Part shown: one piece after another, positions 2,734 to 36,402 of the stretch | How the letters are laid out: the number at the start of each line of letters is the position of its first letter | Position numbering within the stretch: position 1 is the stretch's first letter | Source of the DNA: Candidatus Saganbacteria bacterium | GTDB lineage: Bacteria > Margulisbacteria > WOR-1 > XYC2-FULL-46-14 > XYC2-FULL-37-10 | Direction of reading: 5' to 3' | NCBI GenBank assembly: GCA_016223245.1 | Contig: JACRPL010000017.1 | Span: 1-55,672 of the forward strand | DNA: 55,672 nucleotides | Translations under genes and position numbers: made by a program | The notes under the pieces: model-generated | What the model saw: only the letters and a program-made list of their open reading frames with translations | Told to the model about the DNA's origin: nothing | Database searches by the model: none

Positions 2734-4066
2734 CAAAAGTATATTAAGGCTCCTTGTTATATCCGCAATATTATCCCTCCTATTACTAGGGGGGATGATT
2801 CTTTTTGACTTCTTTACAACCCAAAATAAATTCAGCCCAAGAACATTAATTGAAAAAGTCGATGTTTCAGGGTTGACCGCCGAAGAAGCCGTGATAAAAC
2901 TAAACCAAAGCCCGGTTTCAGATTTGCTGCCAGGGACAGTTGCATTCGTAAACTCGGGCGAAAGTTTTTCGTTCTCTCCAAGGGATTTGGGGATATTCGT
3001 AAAAGCAACAGAAACCGTATCGCAGGCCTTTTCCCTGTCCCACGGCGGCAATTATCTTAAAACTCTTTCACAAAAGCTTTCGGGAAAATACAGGGTGTAT
3101 CCAGCAAAATTCTCATTTGTCCCTGAAACTGCGCAAGAGATCATTTTGGAGATAGCCCAGCAACTTGATGCCCCTCCTGTCGATGCAAAAATAACAATAG
3201 ATGAATCTACCGGGGGATACCATATTTATCCCGAAAAATTTGGCCGCAAACTCCGCATCAGCAACACGCTGGAGAACCTAAAACAAGCCCTGGACTCGGG
3301 GAAGCCGATTATAGCCCTTGATATTGAAATTACAACAAAGCCTAAGATCACTGAAACCATGCTCCGGGAACATCCCCCTGTTTTTAGGCTTTCGGCGTTC
3401 ACAACCTATTATGGCACGCATGATTCGAAAAACAGGATACACAATATCAAGCTTATCGCCTCATGGTTGAATAATACGATCATTCTTCCCGATGAAGTCA
3501 TGTCCCTTTCAGAAAATATCGGGGACTTTACGGCGGAAAGGGGTTTTAAAGAAGCCTTTGTTATAATGAACGGCGAATTGGTTCCGCAGCTCGGGGGCGG
3601 CACCTGCCAGATCGGCACAACGCTTTACAACGCGGTCCAATTGGCTGACCTAGAAATTATTTCTAGAAGGAACCATTCTTTCTATTTTAATATATATCCT
3701 CTCGGGCGGGATGCGACGGTATACCCAGGGTCGGCTGATTTTAAATTTAAGAACAACACCGGCCGCCCTGTCCTTATTAAAGCTGTTGCAAATAACAGAA
3801 AGCTTTCATTCAGGATATTTGGGACTTCAACCGGGAAAAAAGTTGAGTTTAGCAATCCAAGCATTTATCTTTTAGGCGAAGACGGCTCATTCCACCCGTC
3901 AAACCTGCGAAGCGCGATCGCTTCCGACGCGCCGTTTAGGACTGTCGTTGTAAGGACTGTTTATAACGCTTCTGGAGAAGCAATAAAAAAAGAAACCATC
4001 CGAAGCTACTATAAGCTCTATGGAGAAAAATCAAATGTTCCAATCAAAAGGCCCGAGCCCCGTTAA
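2726..4066 (+). CDS. VanW-family membrane-anchored protein
   Basis: This 446-aa protein begins with a membrane anchor (about 6-28). A YoaR-type 'peptidoglycan binding' region follows (about 40-205), then a VanW domain (about 217-345) with the typical [14 protein letters not shown] and RRNHSFYF stretches. VanW proteins lie in some vancomycin-resistance clusters and many ordinary genomes; their biochemical role is unknown, with a cell-wall role presumed. The start is a TTG (2726) inside the last codons of tuf, so translation may be coupled to tuf. No better start precedes the membrane segment. It also runs into the start of lpxC, which suggests one transcription unit. Confidence 0.8.
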
Positions 4067-4847
4067 AACAATAGCCGATCCCGTTTCGCTGTCAGGGATT
4101 GCTCTGCATTCCGGGCAAAGCTCAAAATTGACCTTCTTGCCCGGCAACGAGGTCGGGATCTTTTTTATCTATCGAGGCAAAAAGCTCCCCGCAATAGCTG
4201 ACTATGTCACCGGGACAAACCGCGGTACGGCGCTTGGAGATATCCAAGTTGTCGAACATGTTCTTTCGGCGGTAAGCGGGCTTGGCATTGGCGCGCTTGA
4301 TATCGAATTATCGACAAACGAGCCTCCCGCGATGGACGGGAGCGCATATCCTTTCGCCAAAGCGTTAATGTCTGCCGGAATTAGGGAATTTGAAGGGAAA
4401 AGGCAAGTTGTAGAAATCGATTCTCCTATTTATCTTAAAGACGGCGGGGCATCAATTGAAGCTTTGCCTTATGATGGATTTGAAATAAAATTTATGGTAG
4501 ACTTCCCAATAATCGGGTATCAAGAATTCACTTTTTCTTCGAATTATCTCGATGAGATATCGCAAGCAAGGACATTCGGGTACCTTGAAGAACTTGAAAA
4601 TTTAAAAAAATGCGGCATGGCGTTTGGCGCATCGACTGAAAATGCGCTGGTATTAAGCCGGTCAGGATATGTAAATTCCCCCAGGTTCGAAAACGAACCG
4701 GTGCGCCATAAGATACTCGACCTTATCGGCGATCTTGAGCTGGTCGGGTCAGACATAAAAGCAAAAATCAACGCTGTAAAGTCCGGCCACAAATTGAATA
4801 TCGCTCTTGCAAAAAAAATAAGAGAGATAGGAAAAGGAGCAAAATAA
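4035..4847 (+). CDS. lpxC: UDP-3-O-acyl-GlcNAc deacetylase LpxC
   Basis: LpxC removes the N-acetyl group from UDP-3-acyl-GlcNAc, the committed step of lipid A synthesis. Seen here are the zinc-site region VVEHVLSA (E74, H75), PAMDGSA, and RHKILDLIGDLELVG giving the other ligands H225 and D229, plus SGHKLN near the C terminus with the conserved histidine. At 270 aa it is a little short of the usual about 300. I prefer ATG 4035, with GGAG nine bases upstream; ATG 4020 in the same frame lacks a ribosome site. Its stop overlaps the start of fabZ-lpxA (TAATG). LpxC is not fused to FabZ here, unlike in Bacteroidetes. Confidence 0.95.
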   Translation: MFQSKGPSPVKTIADPVSLSGIALHSGQSSKLTFLPGNEVGIFFIYRGKKLPAIADYVTGTNRGTALGDIQVVEHVLSAVSGLGIGALDIELSTNEPPAMDGSAYPFAKALMSAGIREFEGKRQVVEIDSPIYLKDGGASIEALPYDGFEIKFMVDFPIIGYQEFTFSSNYLDEISQARTFGYLEELENLKKCGMAFGASTENALVLSRSGYVNSPRFENEPVRHKILDLIGDLELVGSDIKAKINAVKSGHKLNIALAKKIREIGKGAK

Positions 4848-6127
4848 TGCAAGACGTAAACGACATCCTAAAGACCCTGCCCCACAGGTATCCTTTCCTT
4901 CTTGTAGATAAGATCCTCGATATGGAGGAAGGCAAAAAAATTGTAGCAATAAAAAATGTTACAATAAATGAACCATTTTTCCAGGGGCATTTTCCAGGTC
5001 AGCCAGTCATGCCCGGCGTCCTCATCATTGAGTCATTGGCGCAAGTTGGAGCTATTATGGCCCTGCGCGCTCCGTCTTCGCTTGGCAAGATCGTTTTTTT
5101 TGCCGGGATAGACAATGTCCGATTTAGAAGGCCTGTTCTTCCCGGGGACCAGATGAAGATAGTGGTTGAAGTGCTTTGGCTCAAGCGCGGGCTTGGGAAA
5201 ATAAAAGGAACAGCCACGGTTGAAGGCGACATCGCATGTGAAGGCGAATTTACCTTCTCTCTTGTCGACCAGGGAGGGGCAAAAGGAAGTTCTATCCATC
5301 CGACCTCGACCGTCCACCCGACGGCAATACTTGGAAATGGCGTGCAGATCGGTCCATACGCGGTAATAGGCCCGGAAGTCGAGATCGGGGATAGAACTAT
5401 TGTCGGCGCGCACAGCGTCATCAACAGATGGACAAAGATCGGCCAGGATAATAAGATACATCAAAGCGTTTCAATTGGCGCGGCTCCGCAAGACTTCAAA
5501 TATAAAGGCGAAAAAGGGCAAGTAATAATAGGCAGCAAAAATACAATTAGGGAATTTGTGACCATCCACCTGCCGGCCGGTATTGATGGCGGGAAAACAG
5601 TAATTGGCGACGAAAATTTTATCATGATCCATGCGCATGTCCCGCATAATTGTATAATAGGGAACCAGGTCGTAATAGGCGGATATGTCGGCCTCGGCGG
5701 GCACACAATAATTGAAGACCAGGTAACTATTGGCGGGATGTCCGCCATTCACCAGTTCGTGCGGGTAGGCAGGCTCTCCATGGTCGGCGCCCTAACAAAA
5801 GTTGTGCAGGATATTCCGCCATTCATGCTTGTGGAAGGCAACCCATCCGAAGTCCGCGGAATAAATTCTATCGGCTTGCAAAGGCGCGGGATCTCGTTCG
5901 AGGCGCAGTCCGAGATCAAAAAGGCTTTCAAGCTGATATACGAAGCGAAACAATCGACCGACAAAATAATTGAAGCACTTAAAAACAGATTAAGGCCCCT
6001 TGATGAAATAAAACATTTAATATCATTCTTATCTGAAGAAAGCAAAAGAGGTATAAGCAAAAAAGTCGCGCTGGAAGAGATCGAAGAAGAATTGCTCCTT
6101 CCGGAATTGCCAGAACTTGGGATATGA
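4847..6127 (+). CDS. fabZ-lpxA: FabZ-LpxA fusion: hydroxyacyl-ACP dehydratase + UDP-GlcNAc acyltransferase
   Basis: A single 426-aa frame joins two enzymes that use 3-hydroxyacyl-ACP. Residues 1-145 are FabZ, a hot-dog dehydratase with GHFPGQPVMPGVLIIE (catalytic H48 and E62). Residues 148-426 are LpxA, with a left-handed beta-helix of hexapeptide repeats, the catalytic histidine in HAHVPHNC (H267), GGMSAIHQF and a C-terminal helical part. FabZ sends the substrate to phospholipid synthesis while LpxA sends it to lipid A, so one polypeptide holds both branches. The linker is only a few residues long. It starts within the lpxC stop and overlaps lpxB (ATGA), so the lpx genes are coupled. No stop or frameshift separates the halves. 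Confidence 0.95.
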   Translation: MQDVNDILKTLPHRYPFLLVDKILDMEEGKKIVAIKNVTINEPFFQGHFPGQPVMPGVLIIESLAQVGAIMALRAPSSLGKIVFFAGIDNVRFRRPVLPGDQMKIVVEVLWLKRGLGKIKGTATVEGDIACEGEFTFSLVDQGGAKGSSIHPTSTVHPTAILGNGVQIGPYAVIGPEVEIGDRTIVGAHSVINRWTKIGQDNKIHQSVSIGAAPQDFKYKGEKGQVIIGSKNTIREFVTIHLPAGIDGGKTVIGDENFIMIHAHVPHNCIIGNQVVIGGYVGLGGHTIIEDQVTIGGMSAIHQFVRVGRLSMVGALTKVVQDIPPFMLVEGNPSEVRGINSIGLQRRGISFEAQSEIKKAFKLIYEAKQSTDKIIEALKNRLRPLDEIKHLISFLSEESKRGISKKVALEEIEEELLLPELPELGI

Positions 6128-17463: not shown

Positions 17464-17735
17464 CAGAGCTTCTGAAAAATATTCTACAGGGGCATAAAGA
17501 CCTTCGAGGACTAAACGCGGTACTGCTTTGGGACGATGTCGTCGAATCAAAGATCAAAAAGCATACAAGAGCGCTAAAGCTGAACAGGGGGACGCTTTCT
17601 GTAGTGACGGAAAATTCGGTTTGGGCGCAGGAGCTTAATTTTTTCAAAAAAGAGATTATGGATCGGATAAATATCAAAGCGGGATCTAAGGTCGTGCGAA
17701 ATATCATGTTTAAAGTTGGAGGAATAAAAGAATGA
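17460..17735 (+). CDS. DciA-like protein (DUF721)
   Basis: A 91-aa member of the DUF721 family. DciA proteins load or support the replicative helicase DnaB in most bacteria that lack DnaC. Visible marks are WDDVVESKIKKHTRALKLNRGTL and VWAQELNFFKKEI, the compact KH-like domain. The TTG start shares bases with the dnaN stop, and the gene overlaps gyrB by four bases. The place between dnaN and gyrB is a usual one for this family, in which recF is sometimes found; recF is absent here. Confidence 0.8.
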   Translation: MTELLKNILQGHKDLRGLNAVLLWDDVVESKIKKHTRALKLNRGTLSVVTENSVWAQELNFFKKEIMDRINIKAGSKVVRNIMFKVGGIKE

Positions 17736-20443
17736 TGGCGAAACAAAAAGACACCTCGCAGTATGACGCGTCTAAGATCAAGATATTAGGAGGGATAGAA
17801 GCTGTACGCAAAAGGCCTGCCATGTATATCGGCTCGACCGGAAAATCAGGGCTCCATCATTTGATTTATGAAGTCGTCGATAACAGCATTGACGAAGCGC
17901 TGGCGGGATATTGCGATACGATCGGAGTTACAATCCATAAGGACAACAGCGTGACAGTTGAAGACAACGGGCGCGGCATACCGATAGATATGCACAAAGA
18001 AGCAAAAAAACCCGCGGCAGAGGTCGTATTGACGACCCTTCATGCCGGAGGAAAATTCGGCGGCGGCGGATACAAGGTATCTGGCGGCCTGCATGGCGTC
18101 GGCGTATCTGTTGTAAATGCGCTTTCCGAATGGATGGAAGTTGAGATCAAGCGCGATTCGCAGATCTACAGGCAAAGGTTTGAAAGAGGGGATGCCGAAA
18201 AACATAAAATAGAAAAATATAAGGGCGATGAAACCGGGACAGTTGTGACCTTTTTGGCGGATCCAAAAATATTTTCTGAATTGGTTTACGATTACGACAC
18301 CGTAAAACACAGATTGCAGGAATTGGCCTTTTTAAACAAAGGGCTAAAGATCGGATTGATAGATGAGCGCGAAAAAGAAAAAGTCGCGGAAACTTTTGAA
18401 TTCGAAGGCGGGGTCATTGAGTTTATAGAGCATTTAAACAAAGGAAAAGAGGCCCTTTATCGGCCGGCCGCCGGGTTTTCGGCCGAAAAAGAAAATGTAT
18501 TCGTAGAGGTCGGCCTCCAGCACTGCAAAGATTATTACGACGAAAACCTCTATTCTTATGTCAATTGCATAAGGACAAAAGAGGGCGGGACACATGTTGT
18601 CGGCTTCAAATCCGCGCTCACAAGGGTCGTCAATACCTTCGGGCATAAGAATGGGTTATTAAAAGAGGCCGAAACCGTCCAAGGCGAAGATATCAGGGAA
18701 GGGTTGACGGTCGTCATCAATACGCGCGTTCCTGATCCGCAATTTGAAGGCCAGACAAAAACAAAATTGGGGAACGGCGAAGTCAAGGGGATAGTCGATT
18801 CGATAGTTGTCGACGGGCTATCAACATACTTGGATAAAAATCCGGCCGCGGCGAGGGCCATGATCGAAAAATCAATCCTCGCATTCAGGGTAAGGATGGC
18901 CGCAAGGAAGGCGCAGGAGCTCGAACGAAAAAAATCGGCGCTCGACACCGCCATGCTTCCCGGAAAACTTGCCGATTGTTCCGAATCGAACGCGGCAAAA
19001 TGCGAATTGTTCATCGTGGAAGGCGACAGTGCCGGGGGATGTTTTTCTTCTGAAACAAAAGTTGCGTTGACAGATGGAAGCAGTGTTTCTTTTATTGATC
19101 TTGTTAAAGAGTACGAAAAAGGGAAACAAAATTATTGTTATACGATAAAAGACGATGGAAATATTGGGATTGAAAGAATTTTAAATCCGAGAATAACAAA
19201 GAAGAATGCGGAAGTTATCAAGGTGATACTTGATAATAATGAAGAGATTGTTTGTACCCCGGACCATAAATTTATGTTGAGAGATTTTACTTATGTTGAA
19301 GCAAAAAACCTAGCTCCGGATATGAGCCTAATGCCGCTTTATATAAAAAATTCAAAGAAAGAGGGCAGGATAACAATTGAAGGATATGAAATGGCATTAA
19401 ATCCGAAGACGCATAAATGGATTTTTACCCATTTGTTGTCAGATAGATATAATCTTGACAATGCGGCTTATTCAATTGATACAGGCTTAGACCATAGCCT
19501 GCATTTCTTCAAACAAGTATTGGAAAAGCGCGGAGAAGCATTTTATTATGATTGGGACAGAAGCGCCCTAAAACCAAAAAACACAAACCTCTTAAGTTTT
19601 CAAAAATTAAAAAACAGATTTTTTGCCGGAGACGAAAACATGTTATTGGAAGCAGCACAAAATTATAACCATAAAATAAAAAGAATAGAGCGCTTGAAAG
19701 AAAAAGTCGATGTATATGACATTGAAGTCCCGTGCACCCACAATTTTGCATTGTCGGCTGGAATTTTTGTCCACAATAGCGCAAAACAAGGCCGCAACAG
19801 GAAATTCCAGGCGATTCTCCCTTTAAAAGGAAAAATTCTGAACGTTGAAAAAGCCAGACTTGATAAAATTTTAGCCAACAACGAAATAAGGACGATGATA
19901 ACGGCTATAGGCCCTGGAGTTGTGACGGGGCTTAAGGCTTCCGGGAACGGTGACGAAGAAAAAGAAACAGACCGTTCCATTGAGGCTCTCTTGAAGGAAT
20001 TGCGTTACCATAAAATAATACTCATGACCGACGCGGACGTCGACGGAAGCCATATCCGCACACTTCTTTTGACCTTCTATTACAGGTACGCAAGAGAAAT
20101 TGTCGAGAACGGAAATATTTTTATCGCACAGCCGCCGCTTTATTTGGTCAGAAAAGGAAAGAACGAAAAGTATTGCTACTCTGACGCCGAAATGTCCAAG
20201 ATCGTGAAAGAAATGGGGAGCGACGGCGTCGTTATCCAGAGATATAAAGGTTTAGGAGAAATGAATCCGGAACAGCTTTGGGAAACAACATTAAATCCTG
20301 ATACACGCACTTTGCTTCAAGTAACCCTTGAGGACGCCGAGGTTGCCGATGAAATATTCACGGTCCTTATGGGGTCGGAGGTCGAACCGCGCAGGGCATT
20401 TATCGAAAAACACGCGAAAGATGTAAAGAGGTTGGACGTATAA
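17732..20443 (+). CDS. gyrB: DNA gyrase subunit B with an intein
   Basis: GyrB is the ATPase half of gyrase, which adds negative supercoils. The 903-aa frame is about 250 residues longer than usual because an intein (residues 437-682) splits the toprim motif: VEGDSAGG ends the first part and [19 protein letters not shown] opens the second. Without it the protein is 657 aa, a normal size. The N-terminal GHKL ATPase shows [17 protein letters not shown] and [13 protein letters not shown]. The metal site [10 protein letters not shown] and QRYKGLGEM follow the intein. Two ATG codons stand in tandem at the start; the gene overlaps dciA by four bases and precedes gyrA by one. Confidence 0.97.
19040..19777 (+). 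other. Mini-intein in GyrB at the GDSAGG/S site
   Basis: The 246-residue intein has all residues needed for splicing: Cys1 in [10 protein letters not shown], the block B TPDH about 76 residues in, the penultimate His and terminal Asn (FVHN), and Ser as the first residue after it. The C-terminal blocks read [19 protein letters not shown]. The roughly 110 residues between blocks B and F contain no LAGLIDADG motif. The order of residues there (H, then D-W-D, then N-T-N-L) recalls a worn HNH nuclease, which is inference. Splicing should work; homing probably does not. Confidence 0.93.
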
Positions 20444-32149: not shown

Positions 32150-32996
32150 ATGACAAAGACAAATATAGTGGGTGTAGTAAGATCCAGAATGACAGCTTTC
32201 GAACAGGTATGCGGTTCTTTTGCGGATCGAGAAAGAGGATTGGCTCTTACAGTCGGGAGGCCGGATGGAACAAGAATAAGATTGAGAGATGCCACATATC
32301 AGGATGTCACATATCGGCTAGGGAATAATCCACATGAGGATAGGTGCGTTGAGATGGTAACGAGGTTGCGGCTTGAAAAAGAAGACTCGCTTGAAGTCCG
32401 TACTCCCGTTGGAATTTTGCTGTCAAACATAGAAATCTATGTGCCAAATAAAAAGAAATTTGCATCTCTTAATGAGAGTAGACTTTCTGATATAGATGCT
32501 GCAATGCAATTTGTTGATAATTTTTTGTTATATAATGCAATGTGCGCGGCAGCGGAAAAAGGCGGGCCTACGCCTAAAGATATTTCAAATATTGGCCTTG
32601 CTTTTGCTATGACCAAAAGAATACCTATTCCTGCAATGCATGAACGCAAGCCTGCGATGAAGGATGTATTTCCAATAGCGATAGGGCAAGCAGACGTAAT
32701 CGTTAAAGAATTCCAGGCATTTTTAGACGCAGGATATTCAATGCCTTCCCCCCCTGTTATCGAAAAAGGTTGCTTCGGAATATTCTTATCTTGCTGACGA
32801 TTACAAGCCGGCGCTTGTTGATAACGAAACTGACAAAACAGCTTATTGCGATTGGTTGAGCTATATAACCAGAAGGAAATTTAGATTATTAACTCAAGCT
32901 GAATGGGAGGTCGCGATAAAGCATAAAATTATCTTTCCTACTACTAATAAAGATGGAAACTCTAACCCTGTTGGCTTCATCCTTGCCGAGGATTAA
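32150..32996 (+). pseudogene. Frameshifted gene with FGE-like C-terminal fragment
   Basis: The first frame (32150-32797, 215 aa) has a strong AAGGAGG and no family I know. At 32763-32770 (run of five A then GG), a +1 shift opens a second frame (32769-32996) that reads on smoothly as VASEYSYLADDY and then TAYCDWLSYITRRKFRLLTQAEWEVA. That is the YCxWLS...RLPTEAEWE signature of formylglycine-generating-enzyme/SUMF1-type domains. The product would be about 281 aa, and the domain stops soon after this motif, far short of its usual end. It may be a decayed gene, a sequencing slip, or true frameshifting; I favour decay because the domain is also truncated. Confidence 0.7.
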
Positions 32997-33095
32997 CAGG
33001 AACTCGATCCTGCCAAAGGCCGGCACGCGCCAAAATAATTCTTAAATAATTCTTAATCAACTGAAATTTTGGGAAGTACGGTACGATAAAAGAGT

Positions 33096-33584
33096 ATGGC
33101 AGAAGGCGTACACTTTAGAATAGGCGGCAATGACGCATCTTCTTGGGAAAATGCGGCATCCTATGCGCTAAAAAATATTTGTGGGCGAGATCCGTCGTCA
33201 GCCAATATGGCTGGCGCCGAAAAAGCTTTGAAAGCGCAGAATGAGGCGCATCTAAAAGGAGAAGGCGCATACAGGATAAATCTTTCTCTCCCATCCGGCG
33301 CGGACCATAGGTTTTTTTCAAAATTAAGGCCAGGCGTCGAGATATACGTTGTTCCAGCCGAATTTTGCCAGAAAGATGAACCAAAGATTATCGTAAAAGA
33401 AGTTGAAATACCTTGCAAAGAAGCTCCTAAACCTATTCCAGCGCCTGATCCTATGCCTGTCCCTGCCCCAAAGCCAGAGCCAAAACCCGAGCCAGTTCCT
33501 GCGCCTAAGTCTACGCCTGTTCCCAAGGCTAAGCCAAAGCCTAAGCCTAAGCCTAAAGATAATGGAGGCAAAGTCACAATATGA
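33096..33584 (+). CDS. Small protein with proline-lysine-rich tail
   Basis: The 162-aa protein has two parts. Residues 1-88 form a compact unit (AEKALKAQNEAHL, YRINLSLPSG, LRPGVEIYVVP) that loosely resembles a LysM domain (the ALxxxN and PGxxIxVP pattern), which would bind peptidoglycan. Residues 105-155 are proline-lysine-glutamate repeats (PAPKPEPKPEP, KPKPKPKP), like spacers that span the periplasm or wall. No signal peptide is seen. It overlaps the next gene by four bases (ATGA), opening a three-gene unit. Confidence 0.6.
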   Translation: MAEGVHFRIGGNDASSWENAASYALKNICGRDPSSANMAGAEKALKAQNEAHLKGEGAYRINLSLPSGADHRFFSKLRPGVEIYVVPAEFCQKDEPKIIVKEVEIPCKEAPKPIPAPDPMPVPAPKPEPKPEPVPAPKSTPVPKAKPKPKPKPKDNGGKVTI

Positions 33585-34804
33585 GCGATCTTTCTGCAAG
33601 CCCGGTCTGCGCAAAATATTCTATTGCGCCCTCAAGACTAATGCCGGCCTCCGATAAAGAAGCGGCGGCAAGGGCGGAAGATATTATAAGCATCCTGAAG
33701 GAAATAGACGCGTTGTCCAAAGCGAAGGTACTAGTCGGCAGTATTTCCGGCATCTCATCTGCGGCGGTCAAGATCTTTGCGGGAACAAAACCCGACAAAT
33801 GGTTAGATGATGTACGGTTTGAGAATTATATCCAAAAGAAGCTCGAGGCAGTAATCGAAAAGCTTAAAAGTAGAAAATTTGCGAATGATAAGATCAAATT
33901 TGAACAAATGCTTGCGATCTTGAAACCAGTTTTGGACGCGCTTTTGCAAATAAAAAGCAGCCTTTCCCCTGAATCAAAAAAGATATACGATGAAAAAACG
34001 CGCTCGCTTATAAGCAATATTACCACTGACGATATCATGAATGCCCTTGAACGCATCGCAGCAGGGATAGCCGGGAAATTTTCACAGAAAGAAAGAGCCG
34101 CGCTTGGGATAACAGATAATAAAACACCAAATTATTCAGTATTTGAAGCATACATTAGGAGGCAATGCATCCCATCTGCCGCGGTACCGAAGCTCGTCCT
34201 GCCGATCGATCCGCCTAAAAAAATCGAATCTCCCCCATCTTGGGTTTTTAATGCAAATGGAAGCATAGGCGGCGGATATTTGAGCGGAACCGCAGCGGGG
34301 CTTTCGTTAAGGGCCGACGTTAAAATTGGAAAACTTTCGATCTCTCTTGGATACCTTAATAAGGAAAGATTTTCCAACGGCTTTTTGCAGGAGGCCTTCG
34401 ACAAGTATTACGCCGCCGCATCTTATCTTCTCGGAGATCTTGCGGTTGCCGGCGGGCCGCAGACTAATTATCACGCCATTGCGCGCGAATTCGAATTTGG
34501 AGGATTTGCTTCGGGAAGTTTTACAAAAAAGGCGCATTCCGCTTCATTACTTATCAATCCTTCGTCAAGAGGTATTTTTGCCGCGGGGAGATATGCGTAC
34601 GACAAATATGGGGCGGTTGTGTCTTTTAGTTCTGTAAGCGGTGCGCAAGCGACCGTTTTCGCTTCATTTAATATTTGGAAATTAAGAGTTTCCCCTTTTG
34701 TGTCGGCAGATAAAAATGGATTTGGCGGAGGCTTGTCTGTTGGGGCAGGGTCTGAAAACCCGGCAAACAATTTATATCCCGAGAGGTTCACACAATGGCA
34801 GTAG
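33581..34804 (+). CDS. Unknown protein: helical N-terminus, barrel-like C-terminus
   Basis: No family recognised in this 407-aa protein. Residues 1-215 are mainly helical and charged. From about 222 on it reads as alternating short strands (SIGGGYLSGTAAGLSLRADV, SISLGYLN, FGGFASGSFT, FAAGRYAYDKYGAVVSFSS, LRVSPFVSAD, FGGGLSVGAG), much like an outer-membrane barrel. Yet it has no signal peptide, and the C terminus (FTQWQ) lacks the usual last-strand aromatic end. It overlaps both neighbours, so it is made together with the proline-rich protein and the kinase. Confidence 0.6.
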   Translation: MSDLSASPVCAKYSIAPSRLMPASDKEAAARAEDIISILKEIDALSKAKVLVGSISGISSAAVKIFAGTKPDKWLDDVRFENYIQKKLEAVIEKLKSRKFANDKIKFEQMLAILKPVLDALLQIKSSLSPESKKIYDEKTRSLISNITTDDIMNALERIAAGIAGKFSQKERAALGITDNKTPNYSVFEAYIRRQCIPSAAVPKLVLPIDPPKKIESPPSWVFNANGSIGGGYLSGTAAGLSLRADVKIGKLSISLGYLNKERFSNGFLQEAFDKYYAAASYLLGDLAVAGGPQTNYHAIAREFEFGGFASGSFTKKAHSASLLINPSSRGIFAAGRYAYDKYGAVVSFSSVSGAQATVFASFNIWKLRVSPFVSADKNGFGGGLSVGAGSENPANNLYPERFTQWQ

Positions 34805-36402
34805 CTGCAACAGTTAGAGCTCAAACTTTAGGAATAAGATATAGAGGATTTTCAAGGATCGCAGTAGAGCATCCGCGGCTCGCAAATATTGCAAAGTTTG
34901 GAACTCCTATTGCTTCTGCCGGATTTTCCGCATTCAGCTATTATTTATTAACATTCGCAGCGCTTATTCCTGATGCACTGATGACAGCGGGAGCTGGCTT
35001 TGGAGTTGGCGTCTTTTTAGCGGCGATCGGTTCTCTTGTTTCACAAAAAGGGCAAGCAGCTGCAGCGGCTGAAGAAAATTTGGCGCGTGCGGATGCCGCA
35101 GAAGCCGCGCTTCAGGCAAGCCGGCTTGCATTACTGGGAACGCAAGAGATGAACGTTCTTGGGCTCTCGGTAGATGCGCGTTTGAAATCGATAAGAAGAG
35201 AAATAGCTGACCTGAAAAGCGGCATAGAGAAAAATCAAAGTCTGCTGATAATCAGGCGTAAAGAGGTATCGCGGCAAAGCAAGATGGGCGAAACCCAGGA
35301 TGCAATAATCGGAGCCGCAGCCAGAGAAGGTATTGAGCACGATGTCAAAACTTTGCCGGGCAGAATAGAAGGGCAAGAAAATGAATTAAGAGGGCTTGAG
35401 ATCAGCGAAGCGCAGACGGAAAGGTCGCTATTTCCAAGCGCTCTCATTACAGACATCGAAGAATTGGGAAAAGGCGGGATGGGTCAGGTTCAGGTTGGAT
35501 ATTGTCCGAAACTCGGCAAAAAAGTGGTGCTAAAAACAATGCTTTCGGATAAGCTTGACAAAGAGGCATTAAGGGAAGCAAAGGAACGGTTTAAGAGAGA
35601 AGCCCTGTCCCAATCGCAGATATTTGACCCAAATGTCGCAAAAATTTATGGATATTCCGAAGAGACAAAGACCGACAGCGGCGGGCAAACATATATTGTT
35701 TACACTATTTACCAGGAATACATTGAAGGCATGGATCTTACAAAATATTTGGATGCGCTCGAGGGGCGGCCGCGGCCGGTGATCGATATCCTTAGCCTAT
35801 TTTTACAGATCGCAAAGGGTGTTGCCGCGACGCACGCAAAAAACATTATCCACCGGGACCTTAAGCCTGACAATGTGAGGGTCAGCGGCTTGAAATTTGC
35901 AAAATTGATCGATTTTGGCATTGCCAAAGCGGCTAAAGAACACGGAGAAAACGCCGGAGGAACGCAGCTGACGGCGTCCGGGAATATTATAGGAACGCCG
36001 CAATACATGGCGCCCGAGCAAATTCTTCCTGGAGGCAGTAGGAGAATCGGCCCAAAAACGGACGTTTTTGCGCTCGGAATTATTTTATTTGAAATGCTTA
36101 CGGGAAAGCGCCCTTATCAGGGAACCCAGATCGACCAATCATCCGGCGCTTGGGAGCAAGCAGACGAGCAATCGTTGCAATCCCTGCAAATCCTTCTCCG
36201 CACAATATCGGCTTTTGGCAACAGGACAGCGTATCCGTTCCCTGTAATTTCGAAAACTTTAGGGGAACACCATGAATTACAGATACTTGTTGAAAGAATG
36301 ACAGAAAATAACGTCGAACAAAGAATTCCATTGAGCGAAGCGATCAAAGAAATTAATGAATTAATAGCCAATTTTTCTAAACAGAAGATTTTCGCAATCT
36401 AA
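34795..36402 (+). CDS. Membrane-anchored Ser/Thr protein kinase
   Basis: The 535-aa protein has an uncommon order. Two hydrophobic segments lie near the N terminus (about 38-85), then a coiled coil (about 90-215), then a complete Hanks-type kinase (223-535). Kinase motifs: glycine loop GKGGMG (226-231), K247 in VVLKTM, HRDLKPDN (353-360, catalytic D355), DFGIAK (D373), GTPQYMAPEQ and DVFALGIILFEMLTGKRPY. Most PknB-type kinases have the kinase first and a sensor after the membrane segment. It is the last gene of the three-gene unit, whose other products are likely partners or substrates. Confidence 0.93.
   Translation: MAVAATVRAQTLGIRYRGFSRIAVEHPRLANIAKFGTPIASAGFSAFSYYLLTFAALIPDALMTAGAGFGVGVFLAAIGSLVSQKGQAAAAAEENLARADAAEAALQASRLALLGTQEMNVLGLSVDARLKSIRREIADLKSGIEKNQSLLIIRRKEVSRQSKMGETQDAIIGAAAREGIEHDVKTLPGRIEGQENELRGLEISEAQTERSLFPSALITDIEELGKGGMGQVQVGYCPKLGKKVVLKTMLSDKLDKEALREAKERFKREALSQSQIFDPNVAKIYGYSEETKTDSGGQTYIVYTIYQEYIEGMDLTKYLDALEGRPRPVIDILSLFLQIAKGVAATHAKNIIHRDLKPDNVRVSGLKFAKLIDFGIAKAAKEHGENAGGTQLTASGNIIGTPQYMAPEQILPGGSRRIGPKTDVFALGIILFEMLTGKRPYQGTQIDQSSGAWEQADEQSLQSLQILLRTISAFGNRTAYPFPVISKTLGEHHELQILVERMTENNVEQRIPLSEAIKEINELIANFSKQKIFAI

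Follow-up and report, generated by a model that had tools for sequence, protein, structure and literature searches.

A conserved three-gene operon with a membrane-anchored Ser/Thr kinase and a barrel-like protein in Candidatus Saganbacteria

Background

Hanks-type membrane Ser/Thr kinases of the PknB/StkP kind resemble the kinase of the three-gene unit described here in the kinase domain and its catalytic residues, and StkP-, PknA- and PknB-type domains are the closest solved domains to it. Unlike PknB and StkP, the unit kinase has an N-terminal two-helix hairpin and a coiled-coil-like stretch, and it lacks PASTA repeats or any other sensor domain outside the membrane. The BcsC/BcsZ cellulose export system, with its GH8, TPR and outer-membrane barrel components, shares with the middle protein of the unit a helical part followed by a C-terminal barrel-type region, but the 407-aa family to which the middle protein belongs matches neither TPR nor GH8 and is not accompanied by a synthase gene: no TPR was found in the middle proteins scanned, and no cellulose synthase was recognized by eye among the ORFs of the window. 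OmpA-type proteins and LysM anchors resemble the unit in concept: an outer-membrane barrel is fastened to a small protein that faces the peptidoglycan. In the unit, however, the barrel-like region is C-terminal in a protein that lacks a signal peptide, and the small first protein did not prove to be a LysM protein. The known defense systems PD-T4-6 and MADS match the unit in the kinase domain only; their cognate partner genes are missing, and the partners in the unit do not match them. What is new is the conserved operon, which has not been described so far, while the kinase itself is an ordinary Hanks-type domain.

The unit was found in a window of 55,672 nucleotides (the whole stretch of DNA that was analyzed), which is a complete contig of a 1.65-Mb genome from Candidatus Saganbacteria (WOR-1), a poorly known, uncultured class-level group related to the cyanobacteria.

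Results and Discussion

Layout of the unit

The features of the unit in the window are as follows.

33096..33584, plus strand: first gene, 162 aa; cysteine-containing domain of ~95 residues (33096-33380) followed by a tail rich in Pro, Lys and Glu; signal peptide absent in this genome
33581..34804, plus strand: middle gene, 407 aa; [IV]C motif at the N-terminus, then a helical region, a Pro-rich linker and, at the C-terminus, a region resembling an outer-membrane barrel; signal peptide absent
33581..34180, plus strand: residues 1-200 of the middle protein, a helical N-terminal region; a low-confidence model shows helices, and beta periodicity is absent
34181..34252, plus strand: proline-rich linker of the middle protein, found in the members aligned
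34253..34756, plus strand: barrel-like region of the middle protein, residues 225-392; aromatic/glycine-rich, alternating hydrophobicity, antiparallel strands in a low-confidence model
34795..36402, plus strand: third gene, 535 aa; Ser/Thr kinase with a membrane hairpin and a coiled-coil-like stretch ahead of the kinase domain
34918..35040, plus strand: two hydrophobic segments of the kinase, residues 42-58 and 66-82, together a hairpin whose loop is short
35452..36348, plus strand: Hanks-type kinase domain; K247, E269, HRDLKPDN (353-360), DFG (373-375) and the PE of APE all present

The original prediction had the three genes overlapping head to tail, and they do: the first and middle genes share 4 bases and the middle and third genes 10 bases, all on the plus strand. 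Shine-Dalgarno-like sequences precede the starts of the middle gene (GGAGG) and the third gene (GAGAGG). Promoter and terminator scans of the unit gave a signal no better than that in shuffled sequences.

Distribution of the unit

In a single-sequence search the 407-aa protein found only itself among 74 genomes of the phylum, 84,980 species genomes and viral contigs. The resulting impression of an orphan was overturned by profiles and kinase neighborhoods. The domain of the first protein and the kinase, used as queries, led to one and the same pair of contigs, where the gene order was also shared, and the full unit was present in G007 and G010. A profile of three middle proteins matched G025 (E 2.9e-50) and, weakly, G004 and G006, and these weak matches belonged to complete units. 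Examination of 40 more neighborhoods, nearly all of them around kinases, with growing profiles yielded further units in G004 (a third copy), G013, G024, G029, G023, G022 and G021. A weak match at L045 was a false positive, a flagellin-like protein.

In total, profiles and kinase neighborhoods placed the unit at 14 loci in at least 12 of the 31 Saganbacteria genomes, in six families, with a constant gene order of first gene, helical and barrel-like protein, and kinase. The original prediction that the three genes form a unit is thus upheld by the same order at 13 loci beyond the window, and the outcome that would have spoken against it, genes not found together elsewhere, did not arise. There is almost no doubt that this is a genuine, conserved unit. 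Thirteen of the 14 middle proteins were recovered by leave-one-out profiles, with E values between 3e-6 and 5e-48. The distribution is patchy and the unit is fast-evolving. None was found in the 43 other genomes of the phylum or in 383 broader relatives, a search that strongly diverged copies could escape.

The first and middle proteins had no convincing match in Pfam, NCBIfam, PHROGs, PADLOC or PDB sequences, and no system of this kind is described in the papers searched. The earlier statement that no described system has this gene set holds in that neither partner is covered by a described family. What had appeared to be an orphan of one draft genome is a class-wide operon with two unmatched protein families.

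The kinase

The kinase domain (PF00069, residues 220-518, E 1.3e-40) contains the VAIK lysine and the HRD, DFG and APE motifs expected of a Hanks-type Ser/Thr kinase. Residues K247, H353-D355, N360, D373, G375 and E408 were invariant across eight kinases. All 15 unit kinases have DFG or a close form of it, and an HRD-type motif was present in 14. In the window kinase the two hydrophobic segments are followed by a charged helical stretch and then the kinase domain, and a two-helix membrane hairpin was found in 15 of 15 unit kinases, so that the membrane part predicted ahead of the kinase domain is there in every copy. The suggestion of a sensing role fared less well. Only a short loop of the hairpin lies outside the membrane, and the kinase therefore has no external sensor domain. 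No PASTA repeats were found in the Pfam/NCBIfam scan, and a match to NF033483 covered the kinase domain only and fell under its cut-off. In a kinase tree the unit kinases clustered better than shuffles (8 changes versus 13.1), yet they did not form one clade.

The middle protein

Nearly all middle proteins carry a conserved short N-terminal motif ending in [IV]C; one has NEC. Given its place at the extreme N-terminus of the protein, this motif may serve in targeting or binding. It is followed by a helical region, a proline-rich linker, and an aromatic- and glycine-rich region with two-residue periodicity, the size of which differs among members from ~180 to 350 residues. In the third copy in G004 the motif sits upstream of an in-frame stop. 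A copy of the middle gene at L078 (~3950-5398) has an in-frame stop close to its start, and is either a broken gene or an assembly error.

Aromatic residues and glycine make up 20-32% of the C-terminal region in 13 of the 14 members and 18% in one, compared with a background median of 15.6%. When the background was 460 other ORFs taken from these loci, 12 BamA proteins were among the 20 ORFs most similar on both composition and periodicity, and these measures therefore do pick out outer-membrane barrels. Some members were near average, L073 on periodicity and L074 on composition, and the alternation signal of the window protein was weak (z 0.6). A model from an alignment of three sequences had helices followed by antiparallel strands and was too poor to rely on (mean pLDDT 32.5). 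No Pfam barrel family matched the middle proteins scanned, and the C-terminal residue of the window protein is Q rather than an aromatic residue, with a mixture among its relatives. Overall, the middle protein is probably an outer-membrane-type barrel.

The original prediction that this protein has no signal peptide was confirmed in the window and beyond. None of the 14 middle proteins has a hydrophobic N-terminal Sec signal, while BamA and other exported proteins encoded by these genomes, taken as controls, have ordinary ones. The window protein has no room for a Sec signal because no more than 6 codons of open frame precede its ATG, and in seven members that were checked the frame opened 0-14 codons upstream of the start.

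The first protein

The absence of a signal peptide from the proline-rich first protein was likewise confirmed in the window genome, and most first proteins across the units also lack one. In contrast, the description of this protein as LysM-like was not supported: none of the seven members scanned matched the Pfam LysM family (PF01476), and there was no profile match to the LysM domains of E. coli MltD and NlpD (hhalign probability 0.1%). The predicted structure has the strand-helix-helix-strand order of the LysM beta-alpha-alpha-beta fold, at low confidence (mean pLDDT 57.8), and Foldseek returned only noise, with nothing at E ≤ 0.001. A TonB identity was rejected, as the NCBIfam match covers only the Pro-rich tail (19 bits versus a cut-off of 315) and the protein has no transmembrane segment.

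Leave-one-out profiles recovered the window protein strongly (E 3.7e-20) and the third copy in G004 weakly (E 0.03), and did not support the first proteins of G013, G021 and G022 (E >0.5 or no match). The first-gene products at L074, L096 and L099 have an apparent lipoprotein signal; these copies were equated with the first gene mainly by position because their leave-one-out scores were not significant.

Genome context and a fourth gene

Seven of the units lie at one housekeeping neighborhood, OmpH-LpxD/RsmG-ParA-ParB. The window unit is between OmpH-LpxD, from which it is separated by an oxidoreductase gene and a gene remnant, and RsmG-ParA-ParB. At L030, L031, L043 and L044 the unit follows ParB in convergent orientation (BamA-RsmG-ParA-ParB-unit), and at L041 and L093 it adjoins OmpH-LpxD. 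Ten other genomes of the class had no unit at RsmG-ParAB (two of these stretches are cut by contig ends), and five of them have one elsewhere. The pattern suggests that the unit was inherited vertically from early on and has since moved or been lost around a locus of envelope biogenesis.

The gene remnant in the window consists of a 215-aa ORF of unknown family and, in another frame, a fragment with a weak match to formylglycine-generating enzymes (32150-32998 together); the two look like pieces of one broken gene. The matching segment (32829-32951) ends ~145 bases upstream of the unit.

At least seven units (L041, L073, L074, L083, L093, L096 and L099) have a fourth gene after the kinase, encoding a protein with an acidic Pro/Asp-rich stalk; no such gene is found downstream of the window unit. 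The fourth protein at L041 has a LamG-like match (E 8e-5, under Pfam's cut-off), and several fourth proteins have a cysteine following a hydrophobic stretch. At L042, neighboring genes encode MopE-like motifs and have a weak beta-propeller-repeat match.

Possible function

Location, partners and composition point to a Saganbacteria-specific, kinase-controlled operon for envelope or surface assembly, a reading to which we give a probability of roughly 0.45. The earlier idea of an envelope sensing device survives in its envelope part, which fits the neighboring genes and the apparent lipoproteins and stalked proteins in relatives, but not in its sensing part; the other earlier idea, an export-linked system, may hold. 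One operon, apparently inherited vertically in Saganbacteria, would build or operate part of the cell envelope. The middle protein would be an outer-membrane protein whose helical part and proline linker extend into the periplasm, where the small proline-rich protein may form a bridge to it. The cytoplasm-facing kinase would phosphorylate itself or a partner, which might be the middle protein in its N-terminal region prior to export, and phosphorylation might set the amount of barrel assembled and, in many relatives, of the stalked surface-type fourth protein. Against this stand the signal-less middle proteins in genomes whose BamA has a Sec signal.

That same observation, together with the lack of a Sec signal in most first proteins and the cytoplasmic orientation of the kinase, would suit an inner-membrane or cytoplasmic kinase scaffold for intracellular signaling, with the barrel-like region as a soluble or membrane-peripheral beta domain. 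We consider this somewhat unlikely, since composition and periodicity place the region with the BamA barrels, its variable size is unlike that of fixed-size soluble barrels, and relatives have stalk proteins and apparent lipoproteins in addition.

Other kinase clusters in the class encode giant proteins (1346-1841 aa) with C-terminal barrel-like regions and no evident Sec signal, which means that signal-less barrel-like proteins beside kinases recur in the class. Two of these giants are GH8-TPR-barrel fusions (L112 7430-12268 and L113 6733-12258), and L113 also has a GH26. The unit could be a small relative of these clusters in an exopolysaccharide-linked system, with the barrel as a glycan channel, and the GH26 and the LamG-like fourth protein would agree with such a role. 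However, GH8, TPR and glycosyltransferase are all missing from the window unit and no significant sequence match links the 407-aa family with the giant barrels, making a glycan channel decidedly unlikely.

A defense-type module, with the kinase as a sensor of phage or stress that turns on the barrel protein as an inserted pore and so stops the cell, is very improbable: the patchy, fast-evolving distribution and the PADLOC PD-T4-6 and mad6 kinase profile matches would favor it, but those matches are limited to the kinase domain, the partners have no convincing PADLOC or PHROG match, half of the loci are at one housekeeping neighborhood rather than in defense islands, and there was no phage or plasmid match.

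Beyond the envelope-assembly operon itself, a broader and rather speculative proposal is a lineage-specific delivery of Sec-less outer-membrane-type barrels, coupled to membrane-hairpin Ser/Thr kinases, of which the 407-aa unit would be the smallest form and the giants, including the GH8-TPR-barrel proteins, the largest. The question raised is whether signal-less barrel-type proteins reach the outer membrane, how they do so, and what part the membrane-anchored kinase plays.

Other observations

The kinase clusters at L056 (5066-6997) and L059 (1-2789), at first taken for barrel-like, contain coiled-coil proteins and C-termini that resemble PP2C phosphatases by eye, which suggests kinase-phosphatase pairs in the same class. 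Similar N-termini occur across kinase clusters of one genome (L030 10080-10901, L031 9360-10208, L080 1-474 and L076 10864-12840); they consist of an amphipathic stretch followed by SSSTxGC or VTLxGC and resemble a modular targeting segment. Elsewhere in the window, the DNA gyrase subunit B gene (17732-20443) contains an intein (Pfam Intein_splicing, E 2.9e-18, residues 448-682).
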